Shown here in pieces: positions 61,124-63,138 of a stretch of DNA of 64,000 nt (its first letter is position 1; each line of letters begins with the position of its first letter). The position numbers were made by a program, and so were the translations under genes. The notes beneath the pieces are model-generated. The model saw nothing but the letters and a program-made list of their open reading frames with translations, ran no database searches and had not been told where the DNA came from. This DNA is from Shouchella miscanthi (GTDB lineage: Bacteria; Bacillota; Bacilli; Bacillales; Bacillaceae_D), in contig NZ_CP042163.1 of the NCBI RefSeq assembly GCF_007725405.1, positions 3,224,001-3,288,000 on the forward strand, in the 5' to 3' direction.

Positions 61124-61153
61124 AAAAACGGCCTGTCCCCAGGCCGTTTTTAC
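61122..61153. terminator. Bidirectional terminator
   Basis: AAAAACGGCCTG (61124-61135) and CAGGCCGTTTTT (61140-61151) form a perfect stem between convergent genes; it includes the stop codon region of both. Confidence 0.92.
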
Positions 61154-61503
61154 ATTTCCTTCTGAAACGCATTTATCATAATCTTAATGTTCGCAATGTC
61201 TGCTTCATTTTTTTCTTCAATTTCTTCTTTCAATTCAAGTAAAAATGTCTTCTTCGCACGTAAATTATCAAGAGCAGACTGGTACTGGTGATACACTTCT
61301 CCTTCTTGTTGATCACTTTGTTCAATACTCGCGTAAACAGCCTCCATAAACCGATATTCGGATAGCTTATCATTTACATTAATGGTCCCTTCATCCTGTT
61401 CATTTAACACTTCCGGTGTTTCAATTGTATAAATGTCTTTTAATTGTTTTTGTAAAGCAACCATATGTTCTTCGCAAAATTTTTGTACTAACTCATCGTT
61501 CAT
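61150..61503 (-). CDS. Uncharacterised helical protein, 117 residues
   Basis: A cytoplasmic, acidic, mostly helical protein. It has a short N-terminal helix (QKFCEEHMVALQKQLKDIY), a loop, and a long C-terminal coiled coil (SALDNLRAKKTFLLELKEEIEEKN). One cysteine, no membrane segment. ATG 61503 follows AAAGGAGTCGG, so the start is secure. It lies downstream of the small secreted-peptide gene on the same strand but a terminator separates them. I do not recognise a family. Confidence 0.7.
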   Translation of the reverse strand: MNDELVQKFCEEHMVALQKQLKDIYTIETPEVLNEQDEGTINVNDKLSEYRFMEAVYASIEQSDQQEGEVYHQYQSALDNLRAKKTFLLELKEEIEEKNEADIANIKIMINAFQKEM

Positions 61504-61585
61504 ATAACCGACTCCTTTCTTTTTACCCTATTCCCAATAAGTATACAGGAAAAACCGTAAAGTAAAGCGGTCTTTAGAAGAAAAA

Positions 61586-61616
61586 ACAACCACTCCTTAA
61601 AAGGAAAGTGGTTATT
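61586..61616 (-). terminator. Rho-independent terminator behind the small peptide gene
   Basis: On the minus strand AACCACTTTCCTT pairs with AAGGAGTGGTT (61588-61613), followed by GTTTTTTC. It ends the transcript of the small peptide gene about 145 bases past its stop. Confidence 0.8.
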
Positions 61617-61756: not shown

Positions 61757-61906
61757 TTATGTCCCGGGACGCGTTGGACCATCTGTTAATTCAGCAACTG
61801 AACTTGCAGGTCCAGTACCTGGTCTTGTAGGGCCACTTAAATCAATAACAGAAGTTGTTGATAAAACGATCCCCATTGCAATTAGCAACGATACTACCTG
61901 TTTCAC
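61757..61906 (-). CDS. Secreted small-peptide precursor with duplicated GPTRPGT (Phr-like)
   Basis: A 49-residue precursor. GTG 61906 follows AAGGGGGTGA at ideal spacing. Residues 1-20 form a signal-peptide-like start (MKQ, then VVSLLIAMGIVLS). GPTRPGT occurs at 25-31 and again at 43-49, where it is the exact C terminus. All seven codons differ synonymously between the copies. A C-terminal pentapeptide TRPGT, basic at its second residue and ending in T, fits the look of Phr signalling pentapeptides such as ARNQT, ERGMT and SRNVT. No Rap-type TPR gene is adjacent, so the receptor is unknown. Downstream of the stop the frame stays open for 36 more codons, so truncation of a longer protein is the main alternative. 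Confidence 0.65.
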   Translation of the reverse strand: MKQVVSLLIAMGIVLSTTSVIDLSGPTRPGTGPASSVAELTDGPTRPGT

Positions 61907-62112
61907 ATCTTCACCCCCTTTTCATCATGTACTCTTTCGTAAATCTTTAGCATAACTTGCAAAGAAAAATCGACCACTACTTATTTCTTACCATATCATA
62001 ACGCTCGAAAATCAAGTAGCGACTAGTACTAAGTTATCCCATATAAACAGTCAAGCAACGTTCATTCATCTTTAGTATCATGGTTTAGCAAAACACTCTA
62101 AGGGGTGATTAA

Positions 62113-62940: not shown

Positions 62941-63138
62941 ATGTATCGTTTTAACAGATGGACCTATTCCCTGACACTAGCTCTCATATGCGGTGCCGTT
63001 TACTTAGCATTGAGTTATTTTAATAACAATCAAGCGGAATGGCTAAACACCCTTATCCTAACCACCGCTTTATTCCTTACATGGGTGTTTCTTTTTCCAA
63101 GATTCTATAAAAATAAAAATGGTGAAGTTAAAAAGTGA
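62941..63138 (+). CDS. Small two-helix membrane protein, 65 residues
   Basis: ATG 62941 follows TAGGAGGTATTCG. The protein has two hydrophobic spans (about 8-26 and 35-52) separated by NNNQAEWLN, with a lysine-rich PRFYKNKNGEVKK tail inside. It resembles many small Bacillus proteins of unknown function. It probably shares a transcript with the two small genes before it. Confidence 0.68.
   Translation: MYRFNRWTYSLTLALICGAVYLALSYFNNNQAEWLNTLILTTALFLTWVFLFPRFYKNKNGEVKK

Follow-up and report, generated by a model that had tools for sequence, protein, structure and literature searches.

The window (the whole 64,000-nucleotide stretch analysed here, G000:C1:3224001-3288000, from the 4.25 Mb single-contig genome that we denote G000) carries on its minus strand, at 61757..61906, an orphan gene for an AimP-like propeptide of 49 aa with a GTG start and a TAA stop, delimited by the sequence itself and by orthologues in two further genomes, G060 and G003. 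The heptapeptide GPTRPGT occurs in it twice: at residues 25-31 (61814..61834), encoded by identical DNA in all three genomes, and at residues 43-49, the exact C terminus (61760..61780), where G003 shows one silent difference. Read by eye, the first part (61835..61906) resembles a signal peptide, with a Lys followed by a hydrophobic core, and ahead of the GTG lies a strong Shine-Dalgarno sequence, a AAGGGGGTG-like ribosome-binding site at 61912..61920 (GGGGG at 61914-61918) that is unchanged in the three genomes. The frame, its start and stop, both repeat positions and a good ribosome site are as the original prediction had given them. Judged from its sequence, the gene would thus encode a short propeptide with an exportable N terminus and a C-terminal mature peptide, the layout expected of AimP. 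The stop codon looks genuine, because the TAA is kept in all three carrier genomes and because, in G003, a gap of 1 nt puts the DNA beyond it out of frame; on the same observations we rejected read-through into a longer protein, the case that had been named beforehand as a refutation.

No minus-strand sigma-70 site was found upstream of the gene, and the 7.5 kb searched against Rfam gave no match. In the 801 bases scanned, three terminator-like sites were found against 0.5 expected; the scan gave an intrinsic-terminator-like hairpin of 12 pairs behind the gene at 61585..61616 (minus strand), which could alternatively be an old host terminator. Further downstream, at 61150..61503 on the same strand, lies a conserved neighbour gene of 117 aa, present in 7 of 13 genomes of the genus.

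Repeat copies and conservation

The two GPTRPGT copies share no codon, the seven pairs being GGC/GGT, CCT/CCA, ACA/ACG, AGA/CGT, CCA/CCC, GGT/GGG and ACT/ACA, just as first described. Independent draws from the codon usage of the window give all-different codons with P of about 0.10; therefore the copies have reached silent saturation but do not exceed it, and we dropped the difference at every codon as evidence for anything more. The informative point is not codon non-identity but that all 8 nucleotide differences between the copies are silent: among random sets of 8 substitutions under a uniform substitution model, 1 in 400,000 left the peptide unchanged. That the copies have saturated at silent sites shows that the peptide has long been under selection, which may predate the loss of the receptor, and the earlier claim of selection rather than recent duplication is borne out by the 8 silent differences. 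By the measure of shared codons, seven other double-copy propeptides (5/9, 7/8, 2/6, 4/8, 7/10, 8/10 and 6/9 codons in common) are younger than the orphan. The window has 620 ORFs with lengths of 25-90 aa, and 4 of them, the orphan included, contain an exact repeated 5-mer; the other three appear by eye to be of low complexity.

Between genomes, the ORF is free of gaps in the three-way alignment. G060 differs from G000 in one residue (A34V) and G003 by 9 changes in 150 nt, falling in nine codons (4 silent, 5 non-silent, one of the latter being the change between a GTG and a TTG start), none of which alters a residue within the repeats. Compared with G003, the ORF of G000 diverges by 6.0% and the 117-aa gene by 7.8%; the figure is 13.5% for the upstream DNA, which also has 40 gap columns, and 4.4% for the downstream intergenic DNA. 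The downstream non-coding DNA thus diverges no more than the ORF. These changes between species are too few, and the power too small, for demonstrating selection on the repeats; the strong evidence for selection is within the gene, between its copies, and not between species.

Relatives of the propeptide and their AimR receptors

In its own genome, a single-sequence search with the orphan peptide returned one match besides itself (E 0.00116, 39% identity), a 57-aa propeptide at L019:6758-6931 that carries GPTQPGTGT twice, 3.9 kb from the orphan (65758-65931 in window numbering, past the window end). The 57-aa propeptide overlaps by 4 nt the gene of a 363-aa AimR-family protein, which scores 84.5 bits with Pfam AimR (cut-off 26.7), 135 bits with PHROGs 1728 and 157.8 bits with NCBIfam lysogeny_AimR (cut-off 70). 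The clade profile A1 matches the AimR chains 5zvw and 5zvv in the PDB at 5-8e-11. AimR-family matches over the cut-off are present in 13 of 13 genomes of the genus compared to 1 of 14 control genomes. Of four AimR-family matches in G000, three exceed the cut-off and the fourth, with 66.6 bits vs 70, falls narrowly short. The 2.6 Mb genome G007 has sixteen AimR-family matches, and many of those fetched come with a predicted propeptide.

Among 30 AimR loci compared, the 363-aa receptor (L036) and its nearest relatives form a group of 12 (BLAST of at least 131 bits). At 11 of these 12 loci a downstream propeptide with a GPxxP-type motif follows, most loosely in L035; behind the receptor of L027 no propeptide is visible. 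The predicted signals are GPTQPGTGT twice (L036), GPTQPGGS (L046, L030), GPTQPGGT (L029), GPSNPIQGS (L024, L034), GPTNPPVD twice (L026), GPNQPIIE twice plus GPTQPIIN (L021), GPSHPIIDT (L022), GPINPVD/GPTNPVD (L023) and GPTNVPH/GPGNIIH (L035), so that 5 of the 11 propeptides hold 2-3 signal copies, imperfect in L023 and L035. By sequence the GPTRPGT of the orphan fits this series, and the unit common to it and its relatives, as judged from the motifs, is GPxxP (GPTRPGT) and not the pentapeptide TRPGT that had been put forward as the signal. An RGA-type C terminus is absent: the orphan ends in PGT, and none of the 11 AimR-linked propeptides of the clade ends in RGA.

Beyond its own genome the orphan is rare. 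In a search of 60 relatives, matches at E<=10 occur in 17 genomes, of which G000 and G003 alone pass 1e-3; G060, searched separately, also carries the gene. Among the 15 weak matches, that in G006 (E 0.56) is the AimR-linked propeptide of L026, and we took the remainder as noise. The GPTRPGT-stop pattern (TAA or TAG) is found in 3 of 397 genomes of the order, always as the orphan gene, while the reversed control matched 1. A profile built from eleven propeptides, two orphan sequences included, yielded, at E<=1e-4, 14 matches in 13 genomes. A distance of 30-42 nt separates 11 of these from an AimR match, and the orphan of G000, G060 and G003 accounts for the other 3. Nearly all of these matches are themselves in the profile, which makes the search partly circular; its added value is that it brought up no other orphan. 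With this reservation for the profile, the peptide is homologous to AimR-linked propeptides. The new peptide family that had been suggested thus finds no support; the nearest kin are a GPxxP group of AimP-like propeptides in Shouchella. Outside the bacterial genomes, tblastn of the peptide against phages gave just 2 Aeromonas records at E 2. In viral contigs, the GPTRPGT-stop pattern occurs in 4 rows, with frames of 13-29 residues and no signal peptide by eye, and a scan for GPTxPGTG (at least 120 rows) gave no propeptide by eye among the small ORFs listed.

Behind the propeptides of L036, L024 and L026 we found a terminator-like hairpin and an inverted repeat, CACATNTGCATATGA-N8..16-TTCCTATTTANATGTG, followed by a small ORF; the small ORFs of L036 and L024 look alike by eye. 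This operator-like element thus sits between the propeptide terminator and the next small ORF (L019:6637-6744, and likewise in L024 and L026). Its core pattern, which was derived from those same three places, occurs three times in 13 genomes, at these loci only, with 0 control matches. It was not seen behind six other propeptides examined (L046, L029, L022, L021, L023, L035). Neither an AimR operator with an aimX-like gene behind the orphan nor an operator-like element anywhere in the window was found; as the element was also not found behind most other propeptides of the clade, its absence at the orphan is weak evidence. A half-site-like stretch upstream of the gene in G060 was discarded, since in the alignment it is not conserved in G000 or G003.

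Like AimP of SPbeta and phi3T, the orphan is a small propeptide whose N terminus looks exportable and whose signal stands at the C terminus, and its homologues lie directly behind AimR-family receptors; unlike them, it has two copies and lacks an adjacent aimR, an operator-like element and an RGA end. GPTRPG shares Gly1 and Arg4 with the peptide GMPRGA (PMC6458997), perhaps by chance. The propeptide of the G000 prophage resembles the orphan in its two GPT-x-PGT copies, at a spacing of 17 vs 18 codons in the orphan, and in a similar N terminus, the same strand and the same chromosomal region. It differs in having Gln for Arg at position 4 of both copies and a terminal GT extension, in overlapping an intact AimR gene, and in that its copies share 5 of 9 codons as against 0 of 7 in the orphan.

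A prophage-like island and the groEL site

The orphan lies at the edge of a decayed prophage-like island that holds integrase, FtsK and amidase fragments; in G003 the amidase and FtsK fragments have the order and orientation of the G000 prophage. The 117-aa neighbour gene adjoins a gene that we take to be groEL, recognised from its sequence by eye, in G005, G001 and G006, and does not do so in G009. In G060, about 7 kb that include an integrase fragment separate groEL from the 117-aa gene, and the orphan lies at the end far from groEL. The G000 prophage, which is also present in a 50 kb IMG/VR contig, contains an 18-nt copy of the groEL 3' end, TTACATCATGCCGCCCAT (L019:6081-6098), about 660 nt from its propeptide gene; this copy is likely its attachment site. 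The groEL site therefore appears to have served related elements more than once, and the orphan plausibly comes from one of the earlier elements, as its pheromone gene. Near the orphan in G060 we found no second copy of the 3' end of groEL that could be an attachment site, the longest shared stretches being 10 nt on the same strand and 11 nt on the other. Also in G060, a stretch 4.7 kb from the orphan matches, at 84% over 109 bases, the DNA that directly follows the propeptide in the G000 prophage; one arbitrium module or more, the orphan's own or another, seems to have been lost there.

Two further genes may be mentioned. A small membrane protein encoded next to the orphan in the window (62941-63138, plus strand, opposite to the orphan) has 50-53% identical relatives at L188:4569-4820 and L192:13042-13221, in regions that carry the L046 and L029 AimR genes, and is perhaps cargo common to these elements. 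Within the G000 prophage, L019:12907-13902 encodes a protein with DUF3644 and a restriction-endonuclease-like domain, possibly a defence gene.

Candidate receptor and competing explanations

The orphan does not lie directly downstream of an aimR gene: no AimR match was found at the locus in G000, G060 or G003, and no AimR remnant was detected there in G000 or G003. The predicted orphan status therefore holds in all three genomes. In G000 the nearest AimR match lies at about 4 kb and has its own pheromone; in G060 and G003 the distance exceeds 1.7 Mb. The best candidate for reading GPTRPGT is the L046-type AimR (L046, L030, L029; own pheromone GPTQPGG[ST]), which occurs in the same three genomes. 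Among 60 AimR loci compared, a set that left out a few weaker AimR matches, receptors at least 95% identical to it are found in G000, G060 and G003 only, and in every other genome identity is at most 34%. This co-occurrence is weak evidence, because the three carriers are close relatives. The L046-type AimR is 51% identical to that of L036. In the SPbeta AimR, as reported in PMC6458997, N202 anchors the peptide backbone and the N202A variant shows only a residual response. At the aligned position, as we read the alignments, L036 has Phe and L046 has Tyr, and L024, L026 and L022 keep Asn; binding is therefore not transferable from the known AimR. The difference of Q to R at position 4 may abolish recognition. 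Searched with tblastn, AimR matched only Staphylococcus phage SpaA1 among phages (2 records, 21.7%) and nothing among plasmids.

That the gene encodes an AimP-type propeptide is, in our judgement, highly probable. Going by the sequence comparisons, the best overall explanation, which we hold by a modest preference, is an arbitrium propeptide that has lost its former neighbouring receptor gene, the remnant of a module, and that would act in trans. The propeptide would be exported by the Sec pathway and cut by extracellular proteases into GPTRPGT-type peptides, two per precursor, which would then be re-imported. An earlier prophage at the groEL locus would have brought the arbitrium module of which this gene is the remainder, and the peptide would now act on a resident AimR, in trans only, as no receptor is adjacent. 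Such a working role on the resident AimR, taken by itself, we regard as slightly doubtful. It competes with the idea of a relic, in which the gene would be a pheromone gene whose prophage is lost and which stays intact by chance and has no function; to this we give a substantial though clearly minor share of belief. In favour of a relic are the position of the gene, which borders a decayed island and has no AimR or operator with it, its restriction to three close genomes and its modest divergence from G003, which is not clearly under that of the flanks; yet several neighbouring phage genes are fragmentary, whereas ORF, ribosome site, stop and repeats of the orphan are intact in 3 of 3 genomes, and the saturated silent differences argue for long selection, possibly before the receptor was lost.

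The original prediction had likened the terminal TRPGT to a Phr/RRNPP-type signal. We too find a signal propeptide of the RRNPP type whose N terminus looks suited to export, although its nearest relatives lie directly behind AimR-family receptors (11 of 11 homologous propeptides other than the orphan), so that a Phr peptide for a Rap encoded elsewhere in the genome is very improbable. TRPGT does resemble Phr peptides, and Phr105 of phage phi105 carries its ERPVGT signal in two identical copies, one within the propeptide and one at its C terminus (PMC11343458); Phr105, however, belongs to a Rap-Phr family with its own rap and has a 4-residue spacer. The genome holds 11 RapH_N matches over the cut-off, some with multi-copy Phr-like peptides beside them, but each of the nine full-length Raps has its own Phr-like propeptide, none with GPxxP by eye, and the remaining two matches fall in short or broken frames that lack one. 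Every intact Rap therefore already has a peptide. The nearest match is about 104 kb away, in line with the earlier statement that no Rap lies beside the gene. Equally hard to credit is a secreted peptide with another role, for instance a bacteriocin-like one, or a chance ORF. The orphan peptide has no NCBIfam match and its best PHROGs match has E 0.081, as such an origin would allow; against it stand the kinship to AimR-linked propeptides and the repeat itself, since among 20,000 codon shuffles 50 gave a repeat of at least 5 residues, 4 of at least 6 and none of at least 7.

The unusual part is the receptor-less state. Multi-copy propeptides are already known for AimR, NprR, PlcR and Rap, and AimR receptors without pheromones ('eavesdroppers') have been counted, both according to PMC9765709. 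A selected AimP-type propeptide without a receptor would be the reverse of the eavesdropper case and would offer a natural test case for signal manipulation, either among prophages or between a host and its phage. We found no report of orphan or receptor-less AimP or Phr, or of arbitrium in Shouchella or B. clausii, in a literature that was partially covered. RRNPP_detector, as described in PMC10075063, needs an adjacent receptor and propeptide and would therefore miss the orphan. A host-fixed decoy, in which the bacterium would retain and express a pheromone of phage origin but not the receptor, is an unlikely variant: related arbitrium phages or prophages would read a false signal of many infected neighbours and turn to lysogeny, and the G000 prophage with its near-identical GPTQPGT signal sits 4 kb away. 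At this locus the peptide is defined, a candidate receptor is encoded in the same cell, and the related prophage is present in some sister genomes and absent from others. The GPxxP clade and its operator-like element would extend the arbitrium code beyond RGA peptides.

Repeated signals are also seen in Rap-linked pheromones, with KHDFH five times (L270, G000:C1:1976500-1978600), PKQE three times (L268) and KADGR twice (L266).
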